From contig CAMCXL010000005.1 in the NCBI GenBank assembly GCA_945883505.1, forward strand, positions 1 through 64,000: 64,000 nt of DNA. Reading direction: 5' to 3'. How positions within the stretch are numbered: the first letter of the stretch is position 1; each line of letters opens with the position of its first letter. This DNA comes from Rhodoluna limnophila (GTDB lineage Bacteria > Actinomycetota > Actinomycetes > Actinomycetales > Microbacteriaceae). Below, piece by piece: positions 462 through 58,588 of this stretch. A program made the position numbers and the translations under genes. The notes below the pieces were generated by a model. That model was not told the origin of the DNA and searched no databases. It was given only the letters and a program-made list of their open reading frames with translations.

Positions 462-485
462 GGAGTAAGAAATCAAAAGATTTCG

Positions 486-534: not shown

Positions 535-596
535 TGTCAGTTTTGGGGCTTGTGTGTTAACAGGCTTATTACTATCCAGCAACAAGAAGGAGATTT

Positions 597-1124: not shown

Positions 1125-1133
1125 GGACATATA

Positions 1134-1181: not shown

Positions 1182-1183
1182 TT

Positions 1184-1333: not shown

Positions 1334-1372
1334 TAAGTAAACAAAGCTATAAACATCTTTAGGAGGTGAGAA

Positions 1373-2439: not shown

Positions 2440-2517
2440 CTATAACTTCCAATCAGTAGGTTTGCTACTTGACTGGAGTTTCTACACCCCGAAAAATCAG
2501 GGGTATTGATCTAAAAG

Positions 2518-2590
2518 TGCGCTTGGAGGGACTCGAACCCCCAACCTTCTGATCCGTAGTCAGATGCTCTATCCGTTGAGCTACAAGCGC
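2518..2590 (-). tRNA. tRNA-Arg (anticodon ACG)
   Basis: 73 nt. The acceptor stem GCGCTTG/CAAGCGC, D-loop AGCTCAACGGATAGAGC, anticodon loop CTACGGA and T-loop GGTTCGAGTCC are all present. CCA is not encoded. The 3' end faces the integrase gene, so this is the likely integration target; the second attachment copy is not in the window. Confidence 0.95.
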
Positions 2591-2677
2591 CTTTTGGGCC
2601 CTACATAAAGCCTAGTGCGTTCAGATCATGCGGGGCGCCCTCTACGAAATTTTCTCCTAAAAGCTCGGATATAAAAT

Positions 2678-3946
2678 CTAAACTAAGAACTTTCTTCTCA
2701 GTCTGGACAAATTACCGAGAATTCTCTTGGTGCGATCTAGCCCTTTAGGCATTCCACCGAAACTAGTTCTCTCAAATTTCTGTGAATCAAATTGGCTGGC
2801 AACATTTAATGGGTGCGTAAACTCGTCGTCAACTTTAAAGTCCACCCCACTGTCTATCATAAATTGCCTATAACGGGTAAATGCACTTGTGTAGTTGCTC
2901 CGAGCGTCCTCGAAACTTTGGAAGCTCGCAGAGTTTTGATAAATAGTCCTAAGCCTAGTATGTGCTTTCACCCGAGGAAGTCGCCTCAACCCTAGTAGGT
3001 CTGATATTTCCTTTGTTCGCATGTCATCATGAAATACTACGGCTCTGCTGCCGCCCTGAAGGGCCGCTATTGCTCCGTGGAGGCGGGACCCGATAGCCAA
3101 ATCTACACCTTTATAATAATCTACCCAATCCTTGGGACTGGCGAAGAACCGGATTTGGCCAAAGACTAGTTTTTCCGCCAACGCAACTGGTCGTAGCTCC
3201 TTGATCTGTTCGCCAAACAATAGTGGCCCAACTACGTCCATTTCGTCCTGCATTACGATTTCAACTCCCCCGGCGAATGCGGCTCCTTGAATATATTTTG
3301 CTATCAAAGTATCCGACGTAAAAGCGAGGCGCAATTTTTTTGTTTTATGCTGAACGGGGCCATAAAGGCCCGTTGGAACAGATGCCCCATTATAAAAGAA
3401 GGAGGGGCACCCAATAGGTATCGTGTTTGGTATCCCGATTTTCCTGAGAACTTCTCCGGTTATCTCCCCTCGTACTCCTAAGTTAATGGTTCTTTTAGAG
3501 AGTCGTCTAAAAAAATCCTTTCTTTCCTCAGGGATTAGGCGAACAAAATCCTCTAGGCCTGATTTCATGGGCCCTATGCCGAGAGATGGAATGACCAATG
3601 GGAGGTGCGTACTGTCGATAAATTTTATGAGTCCGTCATAATCTAAAGAAAGGCCATAATCGTACTCGCCTACGCTTACGTGTGTTTGAAACAATAAAAC
3701 CAGGCAGTCGTGATTTTCGCGAATACGGTGCAGTTCTTTGTTGTTAACATTGTCCCAACGATATCCATGGATGTTTCCAATTCCCGAAATCATCTTTTGC
3801 CCGAGTTGTCTTGCAACTGAATATCCAATGAAGGAGTTGCCCGAATTTCCTGCGATTGATTGCGATAGTTCACTTGAAGATTCAGGCCATTTTCCGAGCA
3901 GTACATTGTGATTAAGAATGTAGGGTCTTTGAAACAGATTTGTCAT
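2678..3946 (-). CDS. Polysaccharide pyruvyl transferase family protein
   Basis: 422 residues. The N-terminal part has GNSGNSFIGYSVARQL, the middle has GVRGEITGEVLRKIGI followed by GCPSFF, and the C-terminal part has the signature GSRLHGAIAALQGG. These are the hallmarks of the WcaK/CsaB polysaccharide pyruvyl transferase family (GT-B-like), which adds ketal-linked pyruvate from PEP to cell-wall or exopolysaccharide sugars. Some members act on other acceptors, so the substrate is uncertain. It stands alone between tRNA-Arg and another glycan-type gene on the same strand; the intergenic DNA on both sides is AT-rich, suggesting an accessory region. Confidence 0.8.
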   Translation of the reverse strand: MTNLFQRPYILNHNVLLGKWPESSSELSQSIAGNSGNSFIGYSVARQLGQKMISGIGNIHGYRWDNVNNKELHRIRENHDCLVLLFQTHVSVGEYDYGLSLDYDGLIKFIDSTHLPLVIPSLGIGPMKSGLEDFVRLIPEERKDFFRRLSKRTINLGVRGEITGEVLRKIGIPNTIPIGCPSFFYNGASVPTGLYGPVQHKTKKLRLAFTSDTLIAKYIQGAAFAGGVEIVMQDEMDVVGPLLFGEQIKELRPVALAEKLVFGQIRFFASPKDWVDYYKGVDLAIGSRLHGAIAALQGGSRAVVFHDDMRTKEISDLLGLRRLPRVKAHTRLRTIYQNSASFQSFEDARSNYTSAFTRYRQFMIDSGVDFKVDDEFTHPLNVASQFDSQKFERTSFGGMPKGLDRTKRILGNLSRLRRKFLV

Positions 3947-4319
3947 ACTTGCTCGGAAAGTCCTTTCATGGATAAATGGGCCCTTTGTGACTATTATGTC
4001 TAATTTAGATGGGAGTCTCTTTTGAAATCGGATTGGCTATCTTTTTGCTATGAGACCAATGAATTTAATACCTAGAATTGAGGGCTTACAGCACACTAGA
4101 CCTAAGCTTCTTCACTACTAAAATTTATGTGAATAGATTGAGGAGTTCGCGATGATTGACTTGACCAGCACACGTCTGATTCTAGGTCAAATTCTCAATC
4201 CCTTGAGCTTTAATCGCAATCTAGTTCGTCGATTACTCTAAAACTAAGACTCAGACTGCCCATCACTAAAGTACAACTAAATAAGAGTGCAAAGGGAACC
4301 CAGAAAGCGATGATTCACG
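3947..4319. other. 373-bp AT-rich intergenic region
   Basis: No convincing gene is seen. The only candidate is a 29-codon plus-strand frame at 4152-4241 with GAGGAG upstream of its ATG; its product shows no recognisable motif, so it is not called. The region separates two minus-strand surface-polymer genes and probably holds the promoter of the pyruvyl-transferase-like gene. Confidence 0.4.
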
Positions 4320-5315: not shown

Positions 5316-5372
5316 AAAGGCGACTCTCCACTCCCGATCTGTGAGCTATGAATTCTTAGAATAACGCAAGCT

Positions 5373-5600
5373 TCAAACGAGCGTATCAGGGCTTTTCTTT
5401 GACCTATTCGCAAAGAAATCAACTATGGACCTAGCTACGCCCCTCGATGGATACTGTCTTCGGAATTGGTCGAGTGCCTCCCAATAACCTAGCTCGGTAC
5501 TTTTGAGCCATTCAAGACTTGTGGGTTGATAGAGTCGCCCGTTTGAATGCCCGGAGTTTCTGTGCGTATCCTCAGACGGTTTACCGGACTCGATTACAGC
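5373..5600 (-). pseudogene. Start-less 75-codon open frame, probable gene remnant
   Basis: Within the 378-bp gap 5316-5693, the minus strand is open for 75 codons between in-frame stops at 5601-5603 and 5373-5375, with no ATG, GTG or TTG in frame. The product is protein-like (for example YWEALDQFRRQYPSRG, then SIVDFFANRSKK), which suggests the 3' end of a decayed gene whose 5' part is lost. The family is not recognised. The rest of the gap shows no gene and must contain the cysD promoter. Confidence 0.3.
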
Positions 5601-5693
5601 TCAAATCGCGGCTTTCACCTAGTGTCCCTTTTTGTCAGGCTTCTCATTATGTGTTTGCTCAGGATACAAGTCATTCAATAGCGTCAAACTACA

Positions 5694-6608
5694 ATGGAAA
5701 CTGTGATTTCATCCCCTTCAGTCCTAGAAGCCCTCGAAAACGAGTCCATAGAGATCTTCAGGGAAACAGCAGCTGCCTTTAGAAAGCCAGTGATGCTGTA
5801 TTCCATAGGCAAGGACTCCTCTGTTTTGCTTCACCTTGCCCGTAAGGCCTTTGCCCCAGGGCCCATACCCTTCCCTTTGATGCATATAGACACCACCTGG
5901 AAGTTCAAGGAGATGATCTCCTTCCGGGATGAAACTGCCAAGGAACATGGGTTTGAACTTCTAGTTCAAACTAACCACGATGGCATCAAAGATGGCATTA
6001 CGCCTTTTTCTATGGGAGCTTCCGAATACACCAGAATCATGAAGACCGTTGCCCTTCGGGCAGGTCTTGATAAGCACGGCTTCGATGCCGCCATCGGTGG
6101 CTCTCGCAGAGATGAAGAGCGAAGCCGAGCTAAAGAGCGAATTCTTTCAGTTCGTGAGCCCGGTCACCGCTGGGACCCAAGAAGTCAAAGGCCAGAGCTC
6201 TGGAGAACCTATAATCCCAGGCTCGCTCCTGAACAAACGATGAGGGTTTTTCCAATCTCTGATTGGACAGAGCTAGATATCTGGAACTACATCCTTCAAG
6301 AGAACATAAAGGTAAGCCCTCTTTACTTCGCCAAGGAAAGACCAATAGTTTGGCGAGGAAGCCAGATGATCATGGTCGACGACGATCGCTATCCACTCAA
6401 AGACGGAGAAACCCCTGAGATACGAAGGATTCGCTTCAGGACATTGGGCTGCTATCCGCTAACGGCTGGTGTTGACTCAGATGCCACCACCATGGAAAAA
6501 GTGGTCAAAGAAGTCACTGAGCTCAAGCTCTCTGAGCGAGCAACAAGGTTGATTGACGGAGACAAAGAAGACTCTATGGAGAAGAAAAAGACTGAGGGGT
6601 ATTTCTAA
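5694..6608 (+). CDS. cysD: Sulfate adenylyltransferase subunit 2 (CysD)
   Basis: 304 residues. This is the catalytic subunit of ATP sulfurylase, which makes adenosine 5'-phosphosulfate from ATP and sulfate. The PP-loop SIGKDS is at residues 37-42, and [16 protein letters not shown] and the C-terminal [12 protein letters not shown] block are typical. Length matches the family (about 300). Its stop overlaps the start of cysNC by 1 nt (TAATG), so the two are translationally coupled. No sulfite or APS reductase gene is next to it. With two sulfotransferase genes elsewhere in the window, a role in PAPS supply for sulfation is likely, besides any assimilatory role. Confidence 0.95.
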
Positions 6609-8434
6609 TGGAAAAACCCATCATCAGACTGGTTACCTGCGGTTCGGTCGACGACGGCAAGTCGACCCTGATTGGTCGACTCTTAGTTGAAACAGACAGC
6701 GTCCCGGACGACACCGTAGATGCGGCCAAGTCAGTCCGTCGCTCTGGCTCAACAATCAAAGCAGGAGACATTGACTTCAGCCTTCTGACCGACGGCCTTG
6801 AGGCTGAGCGTGAGCAAGGCATCACAATCGATGTTGCTTACCGCTCAATGAATCTTCTGAATGGCCGTCGGCTAATTATTGCCGACGCTCCGGGTCACGA
6901 GCAATACACAAGGAACATGGCTGTTGCGGCATCCCGATCTGACTTTGCCCTAGTACTGGTTGATGCAACTCGTGGAATCAGAACCCAGACTCTTCGGCAC
7001 CTAACTATCTGCTCTCTGATGGGAGTCACAAAGATTGCCGTTGTCATCAACAAGCTAGACGGTGTTGGCTACAGCGAACAGGTATACAAAGACATTCAAG
7101 AAGGCCTGAAAGAAACCATCGAGCGCCTCGATATCAAAAACATTCACTTCGTTCCAGTCAGCGCCCTAGCTGGTGACAACGTGGTCTATGGAACAGAGAA
7201 TATGCCCTGGTACGACGGGCCTACCCTGCTCGAATACATCCAAGAGTGGGACGTCGAGGACAAAGGCGAGAATCTCCCAAGACTAAATGTTCAGATGATT
7301 TCTCGTGCTGAGAACTTTAGGGGTTTGGCCGGAACAATAGTGGGTGGAAAGTTTGCTGTTGGAGATGAAGTAGCTGTTCTTCCATCCAAGAAAACTGCCA
7401 AAATTTCCCAGATCGCAACCTTTAGTGGAGATCTGAAGGAAGCAGAAGACGGCAAAGCCGTCACCCTGGTTTTAGAACCCGATGTTGACGCAACCCGCGG
7501 CGATGTCATCGAGCTAGCCGATAAAGCATCTTTACCGGCTGATCGCTTTGCTGCAACCGTTGTTTGGCTCGGGGAGACTGATCTGATTCACTCCAAGAGC
7601 TACTTCTTGATTTCGGGCTCGACTCAGATTCCTGCCATTGTCACCAACATCAGGCATGTGCTGAACATAAATAACGGCGAGCATGATGCTGCAAGAGTTC
7701 TGAAGACCAACGAGATTGGTGTTGTTGAGTTGGCAACCGATGCACCAGTTGCACTCATCCCCTACAAACAGAACCGCTTCAAGGGGAACTTCATCCTGGT
7801 TGATCGCGCCACCATGAACACCGTAGGTGCTGGAATGGTGAAGCATTCGCTTCGAAGAAGTGCGAACGTCTCCGAGCATCACTACGATATTGATCGCGAT
7901 GCCAGAGCTGGCCAGAAGAACCAGAAAGCCAAGGTCATTTGGCTTACGGGACTTTCTGGCTCGGGTAAGTCGACTATCGCTAATGCCCTTGAGAAGGAGC
8001 TGTTCTCACTCGGTATGCATGCCTATGTTCTAGATGGTGACAACATGAGGCTCGGTCTCAACAAGGATCTTGGCTTTACTCGTGAAGACCGAGCGGAGAA
8101 CGTTCGTCGAGTCTCAGAGGTCGCACATTCTTTGTATGACGCAGGTCTGGTCACAATTGTTGCTCTGGTTAGCCCTTATGCAGAGGACAGGGCCCAAGCA
8201 AGAGCCCTGTTCCCAGAGGGCGACTTTGCTGAAGTTTGGGTCAAGACACCTGCCGAGGTTTGCGCGGAGCGCGACCCAAAAGGCTTATATAAGAAAGCCG
8301 CCGCTGGAGAACTCCCCAACTTGACCGGTGTTGGGCAAGAGTACGAGGTTGCAGATTCAGCCGAACTTGTTATTGACGGAACAGGGCTTGTGGACGAGAG
8401 TGTTGAGCTGTTAATCGAGAAGTTTTTTAGCTAA
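6608..8434 (+). CDS. cysN/cysC: Sulfate adenylyltransferase subunit 1 / adenylylsulfate kinase fusion (CysNC)
   Basis: 608 residues in two enzymes. Residues 1-430 are the GTPase subunit CysN: G1 GSVDDGKST (12-20), G3 DAPGHEQY (93-100), G4 NKLD (148-151), then two beta-barrel domains. From about 440 on there is APS kinase: P-loop GLSGSGKST (448-456), DGDNMR and ALVSPYAEDR. Together with CysD it converts sulfate to PAPS, the donor for sulfotransferases. The CysNC fusion is known in other bacteria. Its 3' end overlaps the convergent ABC transporter gene by 4 nt. Confidence 0.95.
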   Translation: MEKPIIRLVTCGSVDDGKSTLIGRLLVETDSVPDDTVDAAKSVRRSGSTIKAGDIDFSLLTDGLEAEREQGITIDVAYRSMNLLNGRRLIIADAPGHEQYTRNMAVAASRSDFALVLVDATRGIRTQTLRHLTICSLMGVTKIAVVINKLDGVGYSEQVYKDIQEGLKETIERLDIKNIHFVPVSALAGDNVVYGTENMPWYDGPTLLEYIQEWDVEDKGENLPRLNVQMISRAENFRGLAGTIVGGKFAVGDEVAVLPSKKTAKISQIATFSGDLKEAEDGKAVTLVLEPDVDATRGDVIELADKASLPADRFAATVVWLGETDLIHSKSYFLISGSTQIPAIVTNIRHVLNINNGEHDAARVLKTNEIGVVELATDAPVALIPYKQNRFKGNFILVDRATMNTVGAGMVKHSLRRSANVSEHHYDIDRDARAGQKNQKAKVIWLTGLSGSGKSTIANALEKELFSLGMHAYVLDGDNMRLGLNKDLGFTREDRAENVRRVSEVAHSLYDAGLVTIVALVSPYAEDRAQARALFPEGDFAEVWVKTPAEVCAERDPKGLYKKAAAGELPNLTGVGQEYEVADSAELVIDGTGLVDESVELLIEKFFS

Positions 8435-10269
8435 TCCTTTTCAACCCTCATGAGATCAACAACCCGTTCAACCGATGGATTTCTCGCGATTAGCTCCTTG
8501 AGCGTGCCGGAGTCTCTTACTAGCCCCTCCTCAACCAAAATAACTTTGTCAGCGTGCTGAATTGTATTCAAACGATGAGCAATGAGGACAACAGTCACTT
8601 TTCCCCTCATTGAATCAAGTGCCTTTTGAATCTCAGCCTCCGACTCGGCGTCTAAAGCTGAGGTTGCCTCGTCCATTATTAGTAGGCCTGGCTTTGTATA
8701 AAGCGCCCTAGCCAACCCGAGTCGTTGCATCTGACCTCCGGATAGCCCGTCTTGAAGCTTCCCGAGAGGCGTGTCTAATCCCTGAGGTAGTTCTGCAATC
8801 AGCTCGGTCAAGTTTGCAAGCCGGAGCGCTTCCAGGGCCTGCTCTCGACTTACCTCTTCCTCATTAATAGCTAAGGCAATATTGTCCAAAATTGTCCCAG
8901 AAACTAACCCTGGGCGTTGAGGGACGTAACTAACATTTCCAAGGCCAGAGGCATCACCTGAGGCTCTCGTTGAATCAATTCGAACGATAGCTCCGCTCGA
9001 TGGAGTCAGAACCGCACACAACAAGTCAGCAATTGTTGACTTGCCTGCGCCGGAGGGGCCCATGAGGGCCACTTGGGTGCCAGGCTGAACTTCAAAAGAC
9101 GCATTCCTGAGGGCGGGCTGGTCACCATCAGGGTATGAGAATGAAACTTCGCGAAACTCAACCCCTATCGGGGCATTCGATTCGACTAATTTGGGCGACC
9201 CAGAATTTTCCCCGCTTGTGATATTTCTGCGACCTGGCTCAACTTCACCACCCCTATTGAGCTCGAGAATTTCATGAGCAGTTCTAGCCGAGGGGATGAC
9301 TGCGTTGATTGTGAGAAGCGCACTTTGTAGCGGAAGGAGAGCTGCCGTGAGCCTAAACCCTCCAGAGAGAAAAACCCCGATGGTGGCAGCTGACGTTACT
9401 ATATCTCCGGCGAGGGCCTGAGATATAACAAACAGGGCAACGCCGACCAAAAGAGCGGCCTCGATAATGTACCTGGGCATTCCACTTAGGTAGTACAAGT
9501 TCGCAGCACTGTCAGCAGCGGCTGCTCTAGCCTTGTAAATTCCCTCAATGTACTTCTCACGTTTACCAAGAACAAGCAGTTCCCTGAAAACCGAGAGTAG
9601 GTCGCTGATTGCTGTGTTGGCTGCAACAGCACCCTCCGCTGCTATTTGTCCTGCCTTTGTCATCAATGAGCCCACAAAATACTGCATCACTAAGGAAATA
9701 AAGCCGAAGTACACGACTGCTGCCAGAGTGGCCCAAGGGTCTACAAAAAGAAAGCCTATACAAATCAGAACGAACAACATGGCCTCTGTTGCAAAGGAGT
9801 TTACTGCGTTCAAGAGAGCGTTAAATGCGGCCGGGGACCCGGCCTGAATCGCGTACATCGTCTCTTCGCGGGAGTGCTTTCGGGCGTCGCCCAAATCTCC
9901 ACCAAAGGCAATCTCGGCAATGGTCTTGGCTGATCGCGCTTCAACAGTTGCAACGAAGTATGCTGCCCGCCGTGTGAGAATCAACGAAAATAGAGCCTTT
10001 GCAAGAAAAAGAACCAGTACTGCAGCCGATACCAACGGCAGCGTTTGGGCATTAACCGCGGGAATCTGCAGACCTGCGAACTCAACCACCCGATTAGGAT
10101 CACTTCCAGATGTCAGAAAAATAGCTGTGGAAGTAACGACGAAGCCAATTGCAAGTATCCCAGCAAGATCAAGGACGGAGAGAAAGGCCCGAAGTCCGGT
10201 AAGGAAATACCACTTAGATCTCTCGCTCGGTGTCATGAACGCCAAACTTGACTTGATTGCTTTAAGCAT
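8431..10269 (-). CDS. ABC exporter, fused permease and ATPase (flippase type)
   Basis: 612 residues. There are about six membrane segments in residues 20-330, then a nucleotide-binding domain with Walker A GPSGAGKST (404-412), signature LSGGQ (509-513), Walker B LLIMDE (529-534) and switch AHRLNT. This half-transporter layout and the sequence style match lipid-linked oligosaccharide flippases (PglK) and MsbA-like exporters, which would suit the nearby glycan genes. The substrate cannot be read from sequence. It converges on cysNC with a 4-nt overlap. Confidence 0.85.
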   Translation of the reverse strand: MLKAIKSSLAFMTPSERSKWYFLTGLRAFLSVLDLAGILAIGFVVTSTAIFLTSGSDPNRVVEFAGLQIPAVNAQTLPLVSAAVLVLFLAKALFSLILTRRAAYFVATVEARSAKTIAEIAFGGDLGDARKHSREETMYAIQAGSPAAFNALLNAVNSFATEAMLFVLICIGFLFVDPWATLAAVVYFGFISLVMQYFVGSLMTKAGQIAAEGAVAANTAISDLLSVFRELLVLGKREKYIEGIYKARAAAADSAANLYYLSGMPRYIIEAALLVGVALFVISQALAGDIVTSAATIGVFLSGGFRLTAALLPLQSALLTINAVIPSARTAHEILELNRGGEVEPGRRNITSGENSGSPKLVESNAPIGVEFREVSFSYPDGDQPALRNASFEVQPGTQVALMGPSGAGKSTIADLLCAVLTPSSGAIVRIDSTRASGDASGLGNVSYVPQRPGLVSGTILDNIALAINEEEVSREQALEALRLANLTELIAELPQGLDTPLGKLQDGLSGGQMQRLGLARALYTKPGLLIMDEATSALDAESEAEIQKALDSMRGKVTVVLIAHRLNTIQHADKVILVEEGLVRDSGTLKELIARNPSVERVVDLMRVEKD

Positions 10270-10473: not shown

Positions 10474-11223
10474 ATGTTGATCCCCGTTAAAGTTTTGCAA
10501 AGGTTCTGGAGAGTCACCCCATCCGGAGTGGTCCACGTTGGAGCTCATTCAGCCGAGGAATTAAGGGATTACGAGACTTATGGTTTTGGGCCTGTTGTTT
10601 GGGTAGAGGCCCAACCCAATCTCGTTTCAGAACTTAAGATGCGAATAGAAGCTCCGTCTGAGGTGTTAGAAGCCCTAGTTTGGGACACATCCGGAGAGAG
10701 AATGTCTCTCAAAGTGACAAACAATGGCCAGTCCTCAAGCGTATTCGAGTTTGGGACACATGTAATTGACTATCCAGAAATTGAGGTTGTTGATGAAATT
10801 TCGTTGAGCACTAAAAGGTTGGATGAAATTCTGCCTAGAGACTTTCATCACAATTTCCTAAACATAGACATTCAAGGGGCGGAATACCAAGCCCTGAAGG
10901 GGCTGGGGTTGCTCATCAAAAGATTTAACTATATTTACCTTGAAGTTAATAGGGGGCAGGTCTATAACGGAATTAATCAAGTGGTTGACATAGATAGCCT
11001 TTTAGAGGAATCAGGGTTCCTTCGAGTGGCAACTGTTTGGACTTCTGCATCTTGGGGCGACGCGCTGTACATGAAGCGAGACCTCGCCGATCTAGTATTC
11101 GGAGGGCGTTTTGGTCTCAGAGTAAGGATCGTGTTATTTGGGATTTGGAAGAATCAAGTTTTAAGGAACTTATACCGCCGACTCGTTAAGAAACTGTTAG
11201 TGAAATCCAGGCAGTTAATCTGA
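10474..11223 (+). CDS. FkbM-family methyltransferase
   Basis: 249 residues with GAGGAG before the ATG. The SAM-binding start VVHVGAHSAEE (motif I), then VEAQP and the FkbM-typical NIDIQGAEYQALKG are visible. Such enzymes O-methylate sugars or small molecules, often in surface-glycan clusters. The gene stands alone between tRNA-Ser and the convergent LCP gene, which it overlaps by 9 nt. The acceptor is unknown. Confidence 0.85.
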   Translation: MLIPVKVLQRFWRVTPSGVVHVGAHSAEELRDYETYGFGPVVWVEAQPNLVSELKMRIEAPSEVLEALVWDTSGERMSLKVTNNGQSSSVFEFGTHVIDYPEIEVVDEISLSTKRLDEILPRDFHHNFLNIDIQGAEYQALKGLGLLIKRFNYIYLEVNRGQVYNGINQVVDIDSLLEESGFLRVATVWTSASWGDALYMKRDLADLVFGGRFGLRVRIVLFGIWKNQVLRNLYRRLVKKLLVKSRQLI

Positions 11224-12459
11224 ACAAAGCTCGGTAGCAGCATTGGTACCTCTTGCCCACTCGGGCAAAACATCTTCATTAGCCTCGGTTGCTTCACCGG
11301 TTTCAGCCTCAACAGCATCCGGTTCCTTGAGGGTCGCACCAAAGCCAGTATTGGCTTTTTTAATCAGGACAGGCTGATCATTGGCGATTCGATCGAAGAT
11401 CAGCTGAGCCTGGTCGTAAATCGGCTCAACTCTTCCAGCTTCGCTTCCCGATAGTCCGCCACGTGATGGAACCTGTAAGAAAGTCATCTTGTCTAGGTCA
11501 ACATCCCTTAGTGCCCCAGCCAAGGCAACCATGGTTCCAAGGTCGGTCATGGAATCAGAGAGCTTCATATTTCTAGCTGCAGCGTTAGCCAGGCTATACA
11601 TGTATATCGGGTTGTTTAAGACTCCTTCGTTCTTTACCTTTCTGAGTAAAGAAGTGAGAAATACCTGCTGGTTAGAAATACGGGCAAGGTCAGAGCCATC
11701 TCCAACTCCGTATCTAGTTCTAAGAAAAGCTAGTGCTTCTCTTCCCTGGAGGGTGTGAACACCGGCATCAAGCTTGAGCTTTGACTTTGGGTCATCGATT
11801 GGGTTGGCAACACAAACCTCAACACCGCCGATAGCGTTAGACATCTCGATCACCCCGCGAAAGTCGATTACCCCCAGGTAAGGAATTCTGACTCCCGTTA
11901 GAGCCTGAACGGTGAGTAGTGTGCAGACAGGACCGCCGTATGCAATAGATGAGTTGATCTGCTGCCTGCTCATGGCCGAGAAGGCTCCGCCTTCTGGGTT
12001 TGGGCAGGCAGGAATTGGAACAAGAAGATCTCTAGGGAAAGAAAGAGCAACTGCATTCTTTCTGTCAGCGGAGATGTGAAGAAGCATGATGACATCGGCA
12101 AGTTCTGACTCTTCGTTGCCAAAGCCCGCTCCTTGGCCCTGCCTCGTATCTGAGCCAACCAAAAGTAAGTTGATTGGGCCGTTGAGGTCTTCAACACCCG
12201 GTTGAGCAAAGGCGTTTCCTTCAGCATCGATCAGCTGAATGTTGTTTTCTTTCAAGGTGTTCGAAAGCTGGAAAACCGAGATTCCTGTAACTGCTAAGAC
12301 AGCGCCCATGCCAACCGCAAGGCCCTTGAAGCCCCAGCGAACGTATTTGCGCCAAGGAGCCGGCGATTTCTGGTTGCCATGACGAGGGGTTTCTTTTTTT
12401 GGACCCGTTGGGGGTCTCACTACTCTTCGCGTAGCGAAGTTTGGCAGTTGATCTGACAA
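11215..12459 (-). CDS. LytR-CpsA-Psr (LCP) family protein
   Basis: 414 residues. A basic, Pro-rich cytoplasmic N-terminus is followed by one membrane segment at about 48-68, then the extracellular LCP domain: VGSDTRQGQG, ADVIMLLHISADR, SFPRDLLVPIP and ALAFLRTRYG with the conserved Arg/Asp residues. LCP enzymes transfer lipid-linked glycopolymers (teichoic acid, arabinogalactan or capsule) onto peptidoglycan. In this window the obvious candidate substrate is the glycan made by the neu locus, but that is inference. The C-terminal 50 residues are acidic and low-complexity. Confidence 0.9.
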   Translation of the reverse strand: MSDQLPNFATRRVVRPPTGPKKETPRHGNQKSPAPWRKYVRWGFKGLAVGMGAVLAVTGISVFQLSNTLKENNIQLIDAEGNAFAQPGVEDLNGPINLLLVGSDTRQGQGAGFGNEESELADVIMLLHISADRKNAVALSFPRDLLVPIPACPNPEGGAFSAMSRQQINSSIAYGGPVCTLLTVQALTGVRIPYLGVIDFRGVIEMSNAIGGVEVCVANPIDDPKSKLKLDAGVHTLQGREALAFLRTRYGVGDGSDLARISNQQVFLTSLLRKVKNEGVLNNPIYMYSLANAAARNMKLSDSMTDLGTMVALAGALRDVDLDKMTFLQVPSRGGLSGSEAGRVEPIYDQAQLIFDRIANDQPVLIKKANTGFGATLKEPDAVEAETGEATEANEDVLPEWARGTNAATELCSD

Positions 12460-51054: not shown

Positions 51055-51897
51055 CTAGAAGCTCCGCCAGATTTTGGAAATCCTGTCCGGGCCAAACTGC
51101 CTGGCAAGGTGACTATAGACCGGGGCATAGTGTTTCCTGATCTCTGCTCTGAGCTCATCAGGAATTGGGCTTCTAACCTTGGCGCCGTTCACAATCTCTT
51201 CATACTTAGCCTCACGAAAGGGCAGATCTAAAAAGCCGCAGACTCTTTGGACGGTGTGGGGGGTGAATAGTTCTTCGTAGAACCCATAGAAAATGTCTTT
51301 GCGACTAAAAACCTGCTCAAGATTCTTAATTGTGATGTCGTAACGGGTTCGGAGTTGATAGGCCGGCGATTTGTATTTGCGCTGCAGGATTTCCGCTTCA
51401 AGCTCAGGGTCCTCCGAGTTAGCTTGAATCTGGTTTCGAGCATTCATTCGATTCGAAGAAATGCATCGCTCCACCGGATCTCGCATTAGAAAGAAAACAA
51501 CTACCCGGAACCCCCGTTGTTCTAACTTGAGTTTTATCTCTCTTAGCTTTTCGGGGGGTAGAGCTGCGTAGGAAGGAGTTATGTCCCCCGTAATCGAGAT
51601 TTTTGGCGATCGTTGAACCAGTTGTGTAAAGTAGCCGAAGTAAAAATGATTGTTTCTTCGAAACTTGGCCCTGAGGTTCTTTTCGGAAGCCGGACCAAAG
51701 CTGCTAATCCACTCCAGTATTCTTTTGCGTCGCCTGGGTGTTTTATCACGAACAATGCCTTGGTCGAAGACATGGTATTCCTTCATGAAACCCATATCTA
51801 CTTCGGGGAGAGATTTGAGGTACGAATGAAGCCATGAGGTGCCAGCTTTCTGGGCACCTACACCGAGGATGAAGATAGGTTTCTTTTTCTCTTCCAT
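51055..51897 (-). CDS. Sulfotransferase (PAPS-dependent)
   Basis: 280 residues. The 5'-phosphosulfate-binding loop GVGAQKAGTSWLHSYLK near the N-terminus and the 3'-phosphate-binding RDPVERCISSNRMNARN are the two hallmarks of PAPS sulfotransferases. Similar enzymes sulfate glycans or lipids. PAPS would come from cysDNC at 5694-8434. It is separated by 122 bp from the NeuA-HAD gene on the same strand and probably belongs to that transcription unit. Confidence 0.9.
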   Translation of the reverse strand: MEEKKKPIFILGVGAQKAGTSWLHSYLKSLPEVDMGFMKEYHVFDQGIVRDKTPRRRKRILEWISSFGPASEKNLRAKFRRNNHFYFGYFTQLVQRSPKISITGDITPSYAALPPEKLREIKLKLEQRGFRVVVFFLMRDPVERCISSNRMNARNQIQANSEDPELEAEILQRKYKSPAYQLRTRYDITIKNLEQVFSRKDIFYGFYEELFTPHTVQRVCGFLDLPFREAKYEEIVNGAKVRSPIPDELRAEIRKHYAPVYSHLARQFGPDRISKIWRSF

Positions 51898-52019
51898 TTT
51901 TCCAACACTACTTTTTTACAGAGCTGGTCGGTTCTTCGAGGAGCTGAGTTTTACCGGATGTTTCCTTTTTGTCTTTCGGGGATTCACAGACGGCAAAGCC
52001 GCTTGGAGGCTGAGCCTTG

Positions 52020-53183
52020 TTATTTGGCCTTTGGTTGAGTGAGTATTAGCTCTACCAGTTCCCGAATTGCGCCCTGCCCACCAGCCGCGGCAAGGCATAC
52101 TCGAGCGATCTTTTTGATCTCGGGATGCGCATTGGATGGCGCTATCGCCCATCCAACAGCATTCATGCACTCCAGGTCATTTAGATCATTGCCGATGTAG
52201 GCAACTTGTTCCAGCGCGACATTGTTGTTCTTACTCCAGGCCAGAAGCTCCGGCAATTTGTTGTCTATTCCAGAGATTGCTTCGATACCGAGTTTTTTCG
52301 CTCTCGCTTTCACAACGGCATTGGTTTCTTTGGAAAGTATCAGCATGGGCAACCCGGCTTTTTTCATCATCGATATGCCCATACCGTCCGAACGACTGAC
52401 TTCGACTGTTTCGAGGCCCTCTGAATTCACGGTCGCAGAGTCATTGGTGTGTACTCCGTCAAAGTCCATAACTAAAGCTTGAATTGCACCCTTGGGAATA
52501 AAGCTTGAGTCAAACTCAGGAGCCAGAAGTCTTGCGGTTTCGAGTTGATCCAAATCATCAATCTCAACTGCGAATTTCTCGGAAACCTCTTCGATTCCAA
52601 CCCGACCAAAGAATCTATGCTTGGCCTCCAAGAACCCTTGAGTTTTGAAAACATAGAAAGCTCCGGTCTCCATATAGTGAGGTTCTCTGTCTTGGCGCCT
52701 GGGCCTTTGCAACTTATCGTGATTTACACCGGTTGCGCCATCAGTGCTGGCTTCCCAGAGGAACCCGTAAGTTGCAAAGGCGGAGAATACACAGTCCTCG
52801 GTACCGGCTAGCACTCTAGCTATTGCCCGATCCAAAGCCCCCGAGTCGATAAATGGTGAGGTCGGCTGGATAAACACAACAACTTCCGGGGTGGTGCCAG
52901 CTGTGGCTAAGGATTCAATTGCATGGATGATCGCCGACTCGGAACTAGCGGTGTCGTTGGCTAGCTCCGCTGGCCTTGCCACCACACCGCCATTATTGTT
53001 CCTGGCTTCAGTTGCGATATCTTCACCGTCGGTAGAGACAAAAACTTGATCAATTAGTTCAGCTTCATTGGCCGAGCGAATTGCCCTTGCGACCAGGGAA
53101 TATCCTCCTACTCGAACAAGGTTCTTGCCTGGTATTCCCTTTGATCCGGCTCTTGCCGGAACAATTGCAATCACTCGACTCAT
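52020..53183 (-). CDS. CMP-nonulosonate (CMP-sialate-like) synthetase fused to a KdsC-type HAD phosphatase
   Basis: 387 residues in two domains. Residues 1-225 are a cytidylyltransferase of the NeuA/KdsB type: IVPARAGSKGIPGKN (9-21), QRPRRQDREPHYMETGAFY, and EEVSEKFAVEIDD. From about 231 there is a HAD phosphatase: VMDFDGVHTND with Asp240/Asp242, and GNDLNDLECM (331-340), close to KdsC and KDN-9-phosphate phosphatase. It would activate a nonulosonic acid with CTP, and the HAD part could dephosphorylate the 9-phosphate made by NeuB. Overlaps the polysialyltransferase-like gene by 4 nt. Confidence 0.85.
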   Translation of the reverse strand: MSRVIAIVPARAGSKGIPGKNLVRVGGYSLVARAIRSANEAELIDQVFVSTDGEDIATEARNNNGGVVARPAELANDTASSESAIIHAIESLATAGTTPEVVVFIQPTSPFIDSGALDRAIARVLAGTEDCVFSAFATYGFLWEASTDGATGVNHDKLQRPRRQDREPHYMETGAFYVFKTQGFLEAKHRFFGRVGIEEVSEKFAVEIDDLDQLETARLLAPEFDSSFIPKGAIQALVMDFDGVHTNDSATVNSEGLETVEVSRSDGMGISMMKKAGLPMLILSKETNAVVKARAKKLGIEAISGIDNKLPELLAWSKNNNVALEQVAYIGNDLNDLECMNAVGWAIAPSNAHPEIKKIARVCLAAAGGQGAIRELVELILTQPKAK

Positions 53184-54400
53184 AAGCCGTCGACCCTCCT
53201 TGGGTTAAGCTCTCTGATTCTCGGGAAGTACTTTAACACCGCTGCATCAGCTGACAAAGTCTTGATAACCCTCTTGGATCTTCGGTTAGGCCGTTCAGCC
53301 AGGATCGATAGGGCGAAGCCAGCAAGGGACACGGCCTGGGAACTTGGGCTCAATTTTTCAACATAAGCCAACGATGTTGAGGCAAGACTAATTACCAGCT
53401 TTGGCTTCAAAGCCTGAATCATGTTCTCCGCAGGCGATGAATCGATGGCAAACTTAAGCCTTGCTGACCCAACACCGGTAACTGCCGCAAAGATCAGTTC
53501 CTTTTGTAACTCCGAGGTTCTTGGGTGTAGTTTAATCCAGCAGTCACCCTCGGATAATTCAAGAGCGGCTAAGTAGATTCTTTCAAGCTGAGCCTGAGTG
53601 AAGACATAAACTTGGGCCAGGAACAAGGAGTCCGCTCTGCCAAATTGACTAGTCATCGCACGACTCTCAGGACTGAGGTTCTGATCGATCATGACCTCGG
53701 CAAAGGACACTTCGAGATGTTCCGAATCTGGAAATATCTGCTTAGCTACCTCTGGAAAAGACGTGTAGCAGGTATCGAAATTTCTAAAGCCTTGGGTCAA
53801 AACTTTTTTATCTGGAATTGAGCCGCCGATAACCAGCCAGACCAGCTCCCTCACAAACCTGACGAAGAGCCTTGAAATGGAGTGGTCGGGTGTCCTAAAA
53901 ATGATTGGGCCAAGAAAGCCTCTAACAGCAAAGCCCAAGGTGGAAATGAAGCCGGGTAGCAGAACTCGATTATTGCTTTGGGAGTGAACGTAAGTGCCCA
54001 AGCCATCTTCGACGAGGCAAACCTTGGACCCGAGTTTAACCAGCTTGCTTGCCAGAATCGAGTAGTGGCCCTCATAGGAGAACATATAGGCGGAGCTAGG
54101 GGTGCCGATTTCGGCAAGGATTCGGTCGTAGATGTTGTTCAGGTCCCGGTGCTTGGCCTTAGTGATTGCGTAGCTTGCACCGGGTAGTTCAATTTTGTGA
54201 ATCGGGGCATCTCCGAGCGCCAAAGCCAGCCCTTGAATCTCAGGTTCATCGACGTCGGTTCCGCTTCCCCAATCCAAAAACACAACCCTGGAGTCACCTT
54301 GGATTTGTTTGCTGAGGGCCTTGCCTGGTTCAGACCGACTTAGGAATCGGGCCATCCTACGGGCCTGGTTCTTCTGGGAAACGAAAACTAAATGGGGCAA
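53180..54400 (-). CDS. Polysialyltransferase-like protein (alpha-2,8-polysialyltransferase family)
   Basis: 406 residues. It carries the bacterial sialyltransferase motifs: acidic D/E-D/E-G at E131-D132-G133 (VEDGLGTY), HP at H292-P293 (KLHPRT) and SLAST (338-342). These are the residues that bind the CMP-sugar in that family. Its stop overlaps the NeuA-HAD gene by 4 nt, so the enzyme that makes the CMP-sugar and the enzyme that would transfer it are co-translated. The product polymer is inferred to be a nonulosonate chain or a single capping residue. Confidence 0.8.
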   Translation of the reverse strand: MPHLVFVSQKNQARRMARFLSRSEPGKALSKQIQGDSRVVFLDWGSGTDVDEPEIQGLALALGDAPIHKIELPGASYAITKAKHRDLNNIYDRILAEIGTPSSAYMFSYEGHYSILASKLVKLGSKVCLVEDGLGTYVHSQSNNRVLLPGFISTLGFAVRGFLGPIIFRTPDHSISRLFVRFVRELVWLVIGGSIPDKKVLTQGFRNFDTCYTSFPEVAKQIFPDSEHLEVSFAEVMIDQNLSPESRAMTSQFGRADSLFLAQVYVFTQAQLERIYLAALELSEGDCWIKLHPRTSELQKELIFAAVTGVGSARLKFAIDSSPAENMIQALKPKLVISLASTSLAYVEKLSPSSQAVSLAGFALSILAERPNRRSKRVIKTLSADAAVLKYFPRIRELNPRRVDGL

Positions 54401-54501
54401 GGTCTTCCTAGGCTCGGGTCAGTACTTAACCCTAGCTCAGCTGCCCAGATCCGACTTGGGATCAAGCGCTGTTGTTCATCTGGAGGTAAAGTTCCCGTCA
54501 C

Positions 54502-54529
54502 TTGTTGGGTGCTCAACCTTTTGTAGATT
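54502..54529 (+). promoter_or_regulatory. Leaderless promoter for the DUF6716 gene
   Basis: TTGTTG (54502-54507) and TAGATT (54524-54529), spacer 16 bp, with the ATG 6 nt downstream of the -10 box; no ribosome site. The divergent polysialyltransferase-like gene starts at 54400, so 54401-54535 is a shared regulatory region. Confidence 0.45.
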
Positions 54530-54535
54530 GGTCAA

Positions 54536-55741
54536 ATGGCCAGAAACCAGAGCGTGCTTTTTGTTGCAACGACAGACTCTTACCTGAAATGGGCCCAGGG
54601 CTTGCGCTCAGAACTTGCCGGTCAAATCCCTTCGACTCTCTACATGCTCAAGTCCCTACAAAACCCATCAGCTCGTCAAACTGTGATCGCAGTGGGCCAG
54701 GAGCAGGCCGCAGCATTAGAGCGAAAGCATCTATTTACGGTTCTGAGATGGATCCGCAGAAACAAGCCAACGGCTGTTGTAGTTGCCGCAACCTCGCCAG
54801 CTCTGGTGGTTATGCGTTGGCTCCTAAACTTTTCGTCTTGGGGGCGCGCGGTTGCTCTGGTATCCGGCTCTCCCGGTATTGCCTACCATCTGGTCGGCAA
54901 GCCGCTTAAGGCTCGGGCCGAGGCCGACCTAATCATTGTCGCCAGCACTAGGGAGCTAGAAAGATTTACCAGAGCTCTTGAACAACTCGGATCCAAATCC
55001 AGCTTGGCCTTATCCACTCTTCCGTTTCTCGAAAGTGTCAGAGATAGCGAGAAATTTTCAGGGCCGAAGACTCTTGTGTTTGCTCCACAACCTGACATGC
55101 CAAAGTCTAAACAGGACAGGGAGCGAGTCCTTCTATCCTTGAATGAAATCGCCAGTCGCGAACCAGATCTGAAAGTTGTGGTGAAACTTCGTGCCATTGA
55201 TGGCGAGGCCCAAACTCACTATGAGAGCTTTTCTTACCCAGAGCTAACTTCTGAGTTAGTTGCTAGCGGGCGCCTGCGTGCCGGGCGATTGGAGTTTGTA
55301 CTTGGGTCGATTCAGGAGCAGCTATTGAACGAAAATGCTTCGCTCATGACCTTGTCTTCAACAGCTGCCCTGGAGGCGATGGCCTCCGGAAACCCGATTC
55401 AGATAATCGATGATTTTGGTGTCTCTGATGAGATCGCAACCAGTGTCTTCGAGGGATCTGAGATTCTGCTACCCATATTGCAGTTCAACTCGAATGAACT
55501 AAGGGAGCCAGCCGATCGCTGGCTAACCGAGAATTACTTTCACCCTCGTGAACTAAACGATTGGATTGAGGCATTGGATCAGCTCTCAACAACCGCTATG
55601 CCAAAGGTCAGGACACTAATTCCTAAATCGCTGGGGCTCTCGATGTTTGTTGGGGAGTTATTGAGGCTTGTGTTCCCCAACGCTTTTGGAAGAAGTCTGA
55701 TAAAACTACTCAAGCGTATCGCGGGAAAAGAAGCTGGTTAG
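54536..55741 (+). CDS. DUF6716-type putative glycosyltransferase
   Basis: 401 residues, no signal peptide. It matches the pattern of the DUF6716 putative glycosyltransferase family of Microbacteriaceae: GT-B-like FVATTDSYLKWAQGL start, VFAPQPDMPKSKQD and a second-domain block LMTLSSTAALEAMASGNPI. The donor is unknown, but location between nonulosonate genes suggests the same glycan. It overlaps the convergent sulfotransferase gene by 36 nt. Confidence 0.65.
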   Translation: MARNQSVLFVATTDSYLKWAQGLRSELAGQIPSTLYMLKSLQNPSARQTVIAVGQEQAAALERKHLFTVLRWIRRNKPTAVVVAATSPALVVMRWLLNFSSWGRAVALVSGSPGIAYHLVGKPLKARAEADLIIVASTRELERFTRALEQLGSKSSLALSTLPFLESVRDSEKFSGPKTLVFAPQPDMPKSKQDRERVLLSLNEIASREPDLKVVVKLRAIDGEAQTHYESFSYPELTSELVASGRLRAGRLEFVLGSIQEQLLNENASLMTLSSTAALEAMASGNPIQIIDDFGVSDEIATSVFEGSEILLPILQFNSNELREPADRWLTENYFHPRELNDWIEALDQLSTTAMPKVRTLIPKSLGLSMFVGELLRLVFPNAFGRSLIKLLKRIAGKEAG

Positions 55742-56788
55742 CTTCGTAACAATCCTTTTTCTAATCTCTGCAAAAAGTCTTGGAACACTGGCGTGGGCTA
55801 AGTAATGCTTGGGCTTTATGGTCGCAATCGCCTTCGCTACAGTTTCTATATAAACGTGACTGGGGATCAGATCTGAGGAAATTATGGCTTCGTCGCTAGC
55901 TGAGGGCCACTGCCCCTTTGTCAAAACTCCAAGTTTCCTAATCGCAGACTCCTGTTCGCCAGCGACCCTAAGGTAGTTCTTGGTCAGGGCTTCCGAGAGG
56001 CCGATTTTCTTGCTCTCCGGGTTTGGTGATGCACTAGAGGCCATGCTGGCGATGAACTTCTCTCGAAAAATTGGAGCCCACTCGCTCTCAACTCGGGTTG
56101 GTCCAAGCTCTTTGCGAAGCGCAATTACCAGGGCGAGCTCTTCGCTATCTAAAGATCTGTTCAACCGAATCTTGTCTGAGCCGGAAAGCAATCCCTCGGG
56201 TAAGCCAAGCTGAGTCTCAAAAAATTGCATCAAGAATTCTGGTTGGAGCTCGTCCACAAACACCACGTGTACTTGAGAAGGTCCAAGGGCCTTAGCCCAG
56301 CGCTCGACGATTAGGTCGTAGGAGTGGCGCTTCCAGAAAAGTCTCGTCTCGTGGTCTGTGTCCGGCTCTTCAAGAAGATTAGTGAAGTACTCACCGGGTG
56401 CCTTGGTGTATCCAGAGCGAACAAACTGTTGATACTGAGAGGGCACAACTTTATCCAGTCGCCTAGCGCTGAAGAACACCTCGATTGAGGTGTTCGAGCC
56501 AGCCGAGTCAACTAGTTCGGCAATGTCCGACGCCTTTAGCTCGCTAAAAAACTCGCTTGCGAGCAGCACTAAGTTGTGCCGCTTAGTGAGCTTGGTGATG
56601 GCTTTTCTAGCCTTGGCTAGAGTGTCTCTCTCGGTAATCTTGGCGAGTCTGTGCTGAGCGTATTTGCCGTGACCTTCAGGGTAGTAAATCCCTAGCTGCT
56701 TGAGTTCTTGCCGCTTACCCATCAGGGCGGCCTGAACTGCAGTTGTTCCAGACTTATGGAACCCTGCGTAAATTACAAGTCTTGGCAA
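55706..56788 (-). CDS. Sulfotransferase-family protein
   Basis: 360 residues from a TTG two nt after the neuB stop, so the two are transcribed together. P-loop-like GFHKSGTTAVQAALMGKR near the N-terminus and a 3'-phosphate site FFSARRLDKVVPSQYQQFVRS. This type is frequent in actinobacterial and proteobacterial glycan loci. It would transfer sulfate from PAPS; its link to neuB points to a sulfated nonulosonate glycan. Confidence 0.8.
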   Translation of the reverse strand: MPRLVIYAGFHKSGTTAVQAALMGKRQELKQLGIYYPEGHGKYAQHRLAKITERDTLAKARKAITKLTKRHNLVLLASEFFSELKASDIAELVDSAGSNTSIEVFFSARRLDKVVPSQYQQFVRSGYTKAPGEYFTNLLEEPDTDHETRLFWKRHSYDLIVERWAKALGPSQVHVVFVDELQPEFLMQFFETQLGLPEGLLSGSDKIRLNRSLDSEELALVIALRKELGPTRVESEWAPIFREKFIASMASSASPNPESKKIGLSEALTKNYLRVAGEQESAIRKLGVLTKGQWPSASDEAIISSDLIPSHVYIETVAKAIATIKPKHYLAHASVPRLFAEIRKRIVTKLTSFFSRDTLE

Positions 56789-56790
56789 AC

Positions 56791-57666
56791 CTAAGCGTCG
56801 ACGCGACGCAATTTGCTAAGCGGTGCTAGCTCGCCTGGGTAAATTCGTTTCACGCCATCTCCCATCGCCTGCTCGATAACCCGAATGTCTCGTATCAAGG
56901 ATACAAAACCTTTGGGCTCAAGCGATGCGCCGTGGTCGCTACCCCACATTGCACGATCTAAGGTGATGTGTCGCTCTACGCTTACTGCTCCCAAAGCAAC
57001 AGCAGCGATAGATATCTGAAGACCGGTCTCGTGGCCCGAGTACCCCACTGGCACGTTGTAGCGCTCCTTCAATGTTGTGATCATCCGGAGGTTTGCCTCT
57101 TCTGGTGGCAATGGGTAGGTAGAGGTGGCGTGCATCATGCTTAGGTTCTCGGTTCCAAGAGTCTGGACAGCTTTATCAATCTGGTCGATGGTTGACATGC
57201 CGGTTGAGAGAATCACTGGCTTTTTTGTTTCAGCAATTTTTGCAAGCATCGAAAGATCGGTCACCGAAGCGGATGCGATTTTGTAGGCAACGACGTTCAT
57301 GCTCTCGAGGAATTCAACGGCGTTCTCGTCCCAAGGGGAAGCAAACCAATCAATTCCTTTTTCACGACAGTAGGCGTCAATTTCCGAGTACTGCTCTTGC
57401 TCGAACTCAACACGGTATCGGTATTCCAAATACGTCATGGTTCCCCAGGGGGTTTCCCTTGGGGTTGACTTCATGTGCTCGGGGGTTGAGATGTCTGGAG
57501 TGCGCTTCTGAAACTTGACAGCTTGTGCACCTGCCTCAACCGCAACATCGATGAGCTGCTTGGCGATTTCAACGGAGCCGTTATGGTTTAAGCCAATCTC
57601 GGCAATTACGTATACGGGCTGGTCGTCGCCTATCGAGCGCGAACCGATTGTTAAGTTGTTTGACAT
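56791..57666 (-). CDS. N-acetylneuraminate synthase-like (NeuB family), no SAF domain
   Basis: 291 residues. The TIM-barrel core is complete: AEIGLNHNGSVEIAKQL (22-38), AVKFQKRTPD, STGMSTIDQI, HATSTYPLPPEE and VSVERHITLD. NeuB condenses PEP with a hexose derivative to make a nonulosonic acid. The family is normally about 340-350 residues with a C-terminal SAF (antifreeze-like) domain; this one stops just after the linker (LAPLSKLRRVDA), exactly at the domain boundary, with no sign of a frameshift. The substrate (ManNAc, Man-6-phosphate or other) cannot be read. No NeuC epimerase is in the window. Confidence 0.85.
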   Translation of the reverse strand: MSNNLTIGSRSIGDDQPVYVIAEIGLNHNGSVEIAKQLIDVAVEAGAQAVKFQKRTPDISTPEHMKSTPRETPWGTMTYLEYRYRVEFEQEQYSEIDAYCREKGIDWFASPWDENAVEFLESMNVVAYKIASASVTDLSMLAKIAETKKPVILSTGMSTIDQIDKAVQTLGTENLSMMHATSTYPLPPEEANLRMITTLKERYNVPVGYSGHETGLQISIAAVALGAVSVERHITLDRAMWGSDHGASLEPKGFVSLIRDIRVIEQAMGDGVKRIYPGELAPLSKLRRVDA

Positions 57667-57861: not shown

Positions 57862-57879
57862 CTTTGTGGAGACTAGGGG
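57862..57879. repeat. Attachment-site copy 1: tRNA-Ala 3' end (18 bp)
   Basis: CTTTGTGGAGACTAGGGG is identical at 17 of 18 positions to 58571-58588, which is the real 3' end of tRNA-Ala with four flanking bases. The copies are direct and 709 bp apart, bracketing one acetyltransferase gene. This is the structure left by site-specific integration into a tRNA gene. Confidence 0.75.
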
Positions 57880-57961: not shown

Positions 57962-58453
57962 TTAGAAGGGTAGGGGCTTTACAAGAAGAACCCTGTCCTC
58001 GCCTTTTCCATCAAAGTCTTTGTGGCCTAATGCTTGAGTGGGCGAAACTAGGTCACCGCTATTCTCTATGGCCATAAAACCGAGAGATTCGTGAAATCTC
58101 AGCGATGTTGTGTTGATAGGCGAAGTCACAGCTTCAATCCGATTTGCCCCAAGACCAAGAGTTTTAGTTGCAAATGCCTCGTAGAGCAATCTTCCTAACC
58201 CATCGGTCCTGTATGCGGGATCAACTCCAATGAAATGTACATAAGCCTTGGTTTTGTCTGTTTGGGAAATGTATCCAACTAGAAATGCGATTGGCTGAGA
58301 ACTATCGCTCCGAACTACAAAACTTGTGGATGCGAAATCCTTGAACCAAAGTTTTGGCAGCATGGGAGACATGTTTCTGCCATCCCACCAAACATCCAGG
58401 TTTTGTGAGATGTGAGGAAAATCTTCCTCGGTTAGTTGCGAGATCTCGTACAT
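57962..58453 (-). CDS. GNAT-family N-acetyltransferase in a tRNA-Ala islet
   Basis: 163 residues. N-terminal YEISQLTEEDFPHISQNLDVW, acetyl-CoA loop VDPAYRTDGLGRLLYEAFA (Q/R-x-x-G-x-G/A variant R-T-D-G-L-G) and the C-terminal INTTSLRFHESLGFMAI, the standard GNAT architecture. Substrate unknown. It is the only gene of a 709-bp insert between two copies of the tRNA-Ala 3' end, with 23-bp direct repeats near both ends and no recombinase. Confidence 0.85.
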   Translation of the reverse strand: MYEISQLTEEDFPHISQNLDVWWDGRNMSPMLPKLWFKDFASTSFVVRSDSSQPIAFLVGYISQTDKTKAYVHFIGVDPAYRTDGLGRLLYEAFATKTLGLGANRIEAVTSPINTTSLRFHESLGFMAIENSGDLVSPTQALGHKDFDGKGEDRVLLVKPLPF

Positions 58454-58570: not shown

Positions 58571-58588
58571 CTTCGTGGAGACTAGGGG
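58571..58588. repeat. Attachment-site copy 2: native 3' end of tRNA-Ala
   Basis: CTTCGTGGAGACTAGGGG, 17/18 identical to 57862-57879; bases 58576-58588 belong to tRNA-Ala. See copy 1. Confidence 0.75.

Follow-up and report, generated by a model that had tools for sequence, protein, structure and literature searches.

The six genes at positions 51055–57666 of a 64,000-nucleotide stretch of Rhodoluna limnophila DNA appear to form a sulfo-Kdn cassette, that is, a set of genes for a sulfated polymer of the actinobacterial teichulosonic acid kind containing Kdn (3-deoxy-D-glycero-D-galacto-non-2-ulosonic acid). We give this reading, together with the steps proposed below, a probability of about 0.63. 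The stretch, called the window here, comprises bases 1–64000 of contig C5 (CAMCXL010000005.1) of assembly GCA_945883505.1; the host genome is indeed small, at 1.22 Mb (98% complete). An initial annotation had placed a NeuB-type synthase, a CMP-synthetase/HAD fusion, a polysialyltransferase-like enzyme and a DUF6716 protein at one locus with two sulfotransferases. All six genes were recovered where it had put them, and the Pfam matches agree for the first four. Pfam directly supports five of the six proteins, the exception being the second sulfotransferase (ST2), which is identified on weaker, family-level evidence. Five genes are on the minus strand and one is on the plus strand:

51055..51897, minus strand: sulfotransferase ST1, 280 amino acids (PF13469, 37.0 bits; PF00685, 26.9 bits; both above cut-off)
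52020..53183, minus strand: CMP-nonulosonate synthetase/HAD 9-phosphatase fusion, NeuA-HAD (PF02348 CTP_transf_3, E 1.9e-24, plus a HAD domain)
53180..54400, minus strand: polysialyltransferase-like glycosyltransferase, polyST (PF07388 A-2_8-polyST, E 1.3e-25)
54536..55741, plus strand: DUF6716 putative glycosyltransferase (PF20471, E 3e-90)
55706..56788, minus strand: sulfotransferase ST2, 360 amino acids (family-level evidence; no Pfam match alone)
56791..57666, minus strand: NeuB-type nonulosonate (Kdn-9-phosphate) synthase, 291 amino acids, without a SAF domain (PF03102, E 1.8e-85)

ST2 sits within the cassette and ST1 at its end. The DUF6716 gene is convergent with ST2 and overlaps it by 36 nt.

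In the proposed route the SAF-less NeuB would convert mannose-6-phosphate and phosphoenolpyruvate to Kdn-9-phosphate. This phosphate would be stripped off by the HAD domain of NeuA-HAD, and the synthetase domain of the same protein would form CMP-Kdn. The DUF6716 and PF07388 enzymes would assemble a Kdn-containing chain, and ST1 and ST2 would move sulfate onto the sugars of this chain from 3'-phosphoadenosine-5'-phosphosulfate (PAPS), made by CysD and CysNC. The chain would leave the cell through a general wall-polymer ABC exporter encoded on contig C4, and a LytR-CpsA-Psr (LCP) enzyme would join it to the wall.

A comparison of gene clusters across the family, proposed in the initial annotation, found the unit again. 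In a second genome of the genus (G003) all six genes occur in identical order and orientation, between flanks whose only match to the window is a weak one. The protein identities are 87% for NeuB, 58–60% for ST1, 59% for NeuA-HAD, 48–49% for DUF6716, 43% for ST2 and 41% for polyST. Synonymous divergence (dS) is saturated for all six genes and for an unlinked exporter gene. Because the six-gene order is kept at saturated dS between other flanks, the unit is old and selected, both sulfotransferases included. Recent recombination was ruled out as the source of the high NeuB identity, since NeuB dS is saturated too. A NeuB of some kind is present in 20 of 60 genus genomes, counting the host genome; the type found in the window occurs only in the host genome and G003, the next best match being 41% identical. 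Among 249 genomes of the family, host included, 68 contain DUF6716 and seven contain PF07388, one of these below the cut-off.

The NeuA-HAD/NeuB/DUF6716 core is ordinary, being present in many Actinobacteria. In a first set of 16 loci, NeuA, NeuB (65–87% identical) and DUF6716 occur together in 12. Of the other four, two are PF07388 loci, one has a NeuB of a different type and one is a second copy of DUF6716. A profile scan of genome contigs found at least 571 NeuB relatives, and the best 80 were kept as named loci, some of them cut by contig ends. These contain NeuB by construction. Within the stretches fetched, the NeuA domain is found in 76, HAD in 68 and DUF6716 in 65, with all three beside NeuB in 57. 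The NeuB frame ends at residue 288–317 in 79 of the 80, too short for a SAF domain, and one is cut at 127. Hosts of the core include Streptomyces, Promicromonospora, Isoptericola, Demequina, Microbacterium, Curtobacterium and Brevibacterium. A scan of the genome contig database for DUF6716 gave no match. NeuB relatives are also encoded on 551 viral-contig stretches of IMG/VR; the 80 kept (L182–L261) are 49–59% identical, ten have a NeuA-domain match and none matches HAD, DUF6716 or a sulfotransferase at E 1e-5.

The locus has the make-up of an actinobacterial Kdn locus, with a SAF-less NeuB beside a CMP-synthetase/HAD protein and DUF6716, and with phosphatase residues that follow the KDN-9-phosphate phosphatase rather than the KdsC pattern. 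No SAF match was found in NeuB by Pfam, and 12 aligned orthologs (65–87% identical to it) are 285–295 amino acids long. The HAD domain keeps E56, R64 and K67, the Glu/Arg/Lys set that we take as the mark of the KDN-9-phosphate phosphatase of Bacteroides thetaiotaomicron, presumably PDB 3e81. A 2013 study by Daughtry is said to be tied to this structure and to the roles of the three residues. KdsC-type sequences in the same comparison differ at the first and last positions of the set, and equivalents of all three residues are present in each of the 79 HAD domains detected (96 loci searched, 17 without a HAD match). The PF02350 epimerase family (NeuC/LegG) has no match in the 98% complete genome, the same search being positive in 11 of 14 control genomes, and Pfam recognises no other nonulosonate pathway gene in the cassette. 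Given the SAF-less NeuB, the HAD residue pattern and the lack of PF02350, Kdn is predicted to be a more likely product than N-acetylneuraminic acid (Neu5Ac) or legionaminate. The fusion of a 9-phosphatase to the synthetase points to a phosphorylated intermediate, as in the mannose-6-phosphate route.

The polyST protein carries readable E-D/E-G, HP and S-rich motifs, which we take to be the sialyl motifs by name; all three had been reported in the initial annotation and are retained in the G003 copy. PF07388 proteins are also present in other neu loci, namely L123, L114 and L079; P. kroppenstedtii, Glutamicibacter nicotianae and genome G163 have such enzymes in their neu loci. Two proposed relationships of polyST were rejected by hhalign: it shows no link to DUF6716, and no profile similarity to the 'SPLQLL' gene found beside NeuA elsewhere, the latter a weak comparison of profiles built from two and four sequences.

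The sulfate activation genes are also in the window, 42.6 kb from the cassette, close to the 40 kb given before:

5694..6608, plus strand: cysD, sulfate adenylyltransferase subunit (PF01507, E 7.4e-53)
6608..8434, plus strand: cysN-cysC fusion, sulfate adenylyltransferase GTPase/adenylylsulfate (APS) kinase, for PAPS supply (PF00009, PF01583)

CysD is the sole PF01507 match in the genome, so that there is no second gene of this family (cysH), and no sulfite reductase (NIR_SIR) was found in the genome. The visible use of PAPS is therefore sulfation. The genome thus combines PAPS synthesis with PAPS sulfotransferases (ST2 at family level), as a sulfated teichulosonic acid would require, and does not have the cysH and sulfite reductase that accompany cysDN in assimilatory sulfate reduction. 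Sulfate activation without detected reduction genes is a clear genetic signature of dedicated sulfation. Among 67 genus genomes PF01507 is present in 11, five with two copies and six with one (a fragment in G042). Sulfite reductase is confined to the five two-copy genomes and none of the single-copy six has it. ST2-type matches are found in six genomes, of which five are among the six with a single PF01507 (hypergeometric P 3.7e-6, for groups formed after the data had been seen and including several incomplete genomes). In three of the four other single-PF01507 genomes fetched (G035, G059 and G022) cysNC adjoins an ST2-type gene, and the fourth, G024, has no ST2-type match. G059 also has a sulfotransferase-like open reading frame (ORF), recognised by motif and without a Pfam match, beside cysD (L290:8615–9487).

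ST1 is assigned by Pfam; the case for ST2 comes from a profile of its family, built on a nine-member alignment. Four of the nine members match PF00685 Sulfotransfer_1 weakly (best E 0.0018) and two match PF13469 Sulfotransfer_3 (best E 0.0073); three unrelated Pfam families are also matched, by one member each. Against the PDB the profile has seven matches, the best four of which are sulfotransferases, with only 3rnl significant (E 4e-4) and the next three at E 0.07–0.12. Residues G9, K12, T15, Q19, R109 and S117 are invariant in the alignment, a layout that we take to represent two PAPS-binding sites. Strong ST2 matches occur solely in the host genome (G000) and G003 among the 67 genus genomes, both sequences being part of the model; both genomes carry another, weaker copy as well, and weak matches occur in four further genomes. 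The second copy of the host (29% identical; contig C9, L270:10609–11736), which has a counterpart in G003, lies among genes that we take, by eye, for GDP-mannose dehydratase, GDP-fucose synthase and fucosyltransferase, a GDP-fucose-making set. A scan of viral contigs gave no ST2 match. A clear ST2-type gene is present in two of the 80 named neu loci, those of Promicromonospora panici (L121; 26% identical, E 9.8e-8 against a small cassette set) and Demequina rhizosphaerae (L102); the further match seen in L155 (E 0.0095) is no better than chance.

Three further genes of the window may serve the polymer:

2678..3946, minus strand: polysaccharide pyruvyltransferase (PF04230, E 1.2e-11)
8431..10269, minus strand: ABC transporter, convergent with cysNC (PF00005, E 5.9e-27; membrane part by eye)
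11215..12459, minus strand: LCP candidate wall ligase (PF03816, E 5.3e-41)

The pyruvyltransferase and the LCP enzyme would act on the Kdn polymer, and the ABC transporter is a possible alternative exporter for it. No ABC exporter genes were recognised at 46–62 kb, in which the window locus differs from those of Demequina, Promicromonospora and Isoptericola, where exporter genes lie inside the neu locus. On contig C4, the genes for an ABC exporter lie together with those for a CDP-glycerol glycerophosphotransferase and a family 2 transferase. The exporter permease, the genome's sole PF01061 match, has homologs in the Demequina and Promicromonospora loci, within the comparison set of loci fetched for neu genes. 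A role specific to the cassette was ruled out for the C4 exporter, and its presence in 45 of 67 genus genomes suggests a general wall exporter. In this genome the same elements are dispersed over several places, with the cassette in one, cysDNC together with the nearby pyruvyltransferase, ABC transporter and LCP genes in another, and the exporter on C4.

Positions 1–6000, which include the pyruvyltransferase, form a probable island with a dip in G+C content to 0.41–0.46, and within the dip a short tyrosine-recombinase-like ORF (1675–2439, by eye) lies beside a tRNA-Arg gene (2517–2590). At the other end of the window, 18-nt copies of the tRNA-Ala 3' end lie at 57862–57879 and 58571–58588, 709 nt apart, one being the gene's own. 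These and a second pair of 23-nt repeats (57930 and 58501) flank a GNAT gene (57962–58453), an arrangement that suggests a very small element which entered at the tRNA. A cassette bounded by tRNA repeats was ruled out, since these two copies in the window flank the GNAT gene only.

Several observations weigh against the sulfo-Kdn reading. The NeuA-HAD protein scores 106.5 bits with the KDN-9-phosphate phosphatase model NF058599, below the cut-off of 180. The core is found outside Actinobacteria too, in a few hosts such as Blastopirellula and Chloroflexi, where the product may or may not be Kdn. In the stretches fetched, ST1 has a homolog in none of the 80 named neu loci and ST2 in just two. 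G003 has the cassette and no PF01507 match (93% complete, in about 60 contigs), and G042 is weak on both sides of the overlap between ST2 and PF01507, with fragments and an ST2 match at E 7.5e-4. Nearly all of the genus genomes with the C4 exporter are without the cassette. The Kdn, the sulfate and the polymer structure are read from genes rather than chemistry, and we infer in the same way that both sulfotransferases act on the Kdn chain, at which position the sulfate would sit, that the chain is attached to the wall and that the C4 exporter is used.

ST2-type genes also occur in other glycan loci, as on contig C9, or elsewhere, as in G035, G059 and G022, and ST2 therefore need not act on the Kdn polymer. 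There is a smaller but appreciable chance that the locus makes a Kdn polymer and that its sulfotransferases act on another surface glycan, for instance that of the C9 locus. The second ST2-type gene there, among GDP-fucose-type genes named by reading only, favours this, as do the ST2-type genes beside cysDNC in the three other genomes, whose fetched stretches have no NeuB or NeuA match. However, G000 and G003 both keep the two sulfotransferases within the six-gene order although dS between them is saturated, and the neu loci of P. panici and D. rhizosphaerae also contain ST2-family genes. On balance sulfate is probably located on the polymer of the cassette.

It is improbable that the product is Neu5Ac, legionaminate or pseudaminate instead of Kdn. 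In NCBIfam, NeuB matches NeuB_NnaB best and NeuA matches PseF best, neither reaching the cut-off, and Neu5Ac-9-phosphate made from N-acetylmannosamine-6-phosphate (ManNAc-6-P) would likewise need a 9-phosphatase. The epimerase search covered PF02350, to which a ManNAc-6-P epimerase lies outside, as does a mannose-6-phosphate isomerase; Neu5Ac by this route may thus be an option beside Kdn, which weighs a little against the preferred product. Against these acids stand the lack of a PF02350 epimerase and of other recognised pathway genes, and the presence of NeuB orthologs without a SAF domain in genera that include producers of Kdn. A still more remote explanation is that cysDNC serves cysteine synthesis and the sulfotransferases yield a small sulfated metabolite. 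CysDNC normally feeds assimilation and here lies well away from the cassette, but the genome has neither a second PF01507 gene nor NIR_SIR, which occur together in five of the 67 genus genomes. The Kdn-like, possibly sulfated polymer proposed in the initial annotation is supported by the gene content, by the core in genera of Kdn producers, by the lack of PF02350 and by PAPS without a reductive sink.

A wider interpretation is tentative and rather doubtful. This streamlined actinobacterium may have dropped sulfate reduction and kept sulfate activation solely for surface glycans, the cassette being one of several exchangeable ones. A conserved sugar synthase with fast-changing glycosyl- and sulfotransferases might in that case vary the coat, possibly under phage pressure.

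The B. thetaiotaomicron pathway also leads from mannose-6-phosphate to Kdn. The window HAD domain keeps the three residues of its phosphatase (PDB 3e81/3e8m), and differs in being fused to the CMP-synthetase. PolyST resembles the PF07388 alpha-2,8-polysialyltransferases in scoring above the Pfam cut-off and keeping their motifs; the assignment is by family and motifs, not by acceptor or linkage.

In granular sludge, nonulosonic acids including KDN have been reported together with sulfated glycans, and genomes were searched for nonulosonic acid synthases and sulfotransferases. As far as the accessible text goes, that work differs in dealing with community chemistry and separate BLAST searches, with no one locus joining both (PMC10483923). 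The wps-1 polysaccharide cluster of Actinoplanes missouriensis resembles the window in that it, too, is actinobacterial and encodes two predicted sulfotransferases, and a sulfate-adenylyltransferase/APS-kinase gene matters for its phenotype. It differs in using a Wzx/Wzy route, and the word 'sialic' is absent from the text available of that 2026 paper, which calls bacterial sulfated polysaccharides exclusively cyanobacterial (PMC13390465). Among the titles listed from the open-licence PMC literature, none links sulfotransferases to a Kdn locus, which is no proof of absence.

Kdn teichulosonic acids are known in actinobacterial walls, as the initial annotation had stated. According to the portions available, the wall polymer of Streptomyces coelicolor contains Kdn (PMC11481543, PMC7831098). 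S. coelicolor itself is outside the 80 named loci; among these, 17 of 19 Streptomyces loci carry NeuA, HAD and DUF6716 beside a SAF-less NeuB (61–63% identical), and the other two are on short stretches. Unlike the window, the Streptomyces loci as fetched have no ST1 or ST2 homolog.

A known counterpart comes from Promicromonospora. In 2017 this genus was reported to make a sulfated Kdn wall polymer (cited in PMC6801904), and the repeat of Promicromonospora citrea 665T, as described in the accessible text, has two glucoses, one of them 3-O-sulfated, and Kdn with a 7,9-pyruvate ketal (PMC6801904). In the congener P. panici a single locus combines the core with PAPS genes, pyruvyltransferases and a homolog of ST2; that the gene side is drawn from P. 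panici and not from the P. citrea genome itself limits the comparison. Within 21 kb, P. panici L121 encodes NeuB, DUF6716, APS kinase, cysD and the ST2 homolog, along with a GT8/CST-I protein, a family 2 transferase, an ABC ATPase and three PF04230 pyruvyltransferase-like proteins (two above cut-off); its NeuA and HAD were found by tblastn and its permease by similarity to the C4 permease. In D. rhizosphaerae L102 the core is accompanied by an ST2-family protein, an exporter and two pyruvyltransferases. The window cassette differs from the Promicromonospora locus in being compact, with two sulfotransferases, and in having its exporter and pyruvyltransferase elsewhere in the genome. The initial annotation had seen the point of interest in the combination of sulfation and nonulosonate genes. 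The combination is real; the chemistry is not new, since a sulfated, pyruvylated Kdn polymer is already published for P. citrea (PMC6801904, in the part available). The new elements are the candidate family of sulfotransferases and the occurrence of a sulfo-Kdn cassette, in compact form, in a genome of 1.2 Mb. Together with its Promicromonospora and Demequina counterparts, the cassette supplies candidate genes for sulfated Kdn chemistry and makes it testable.

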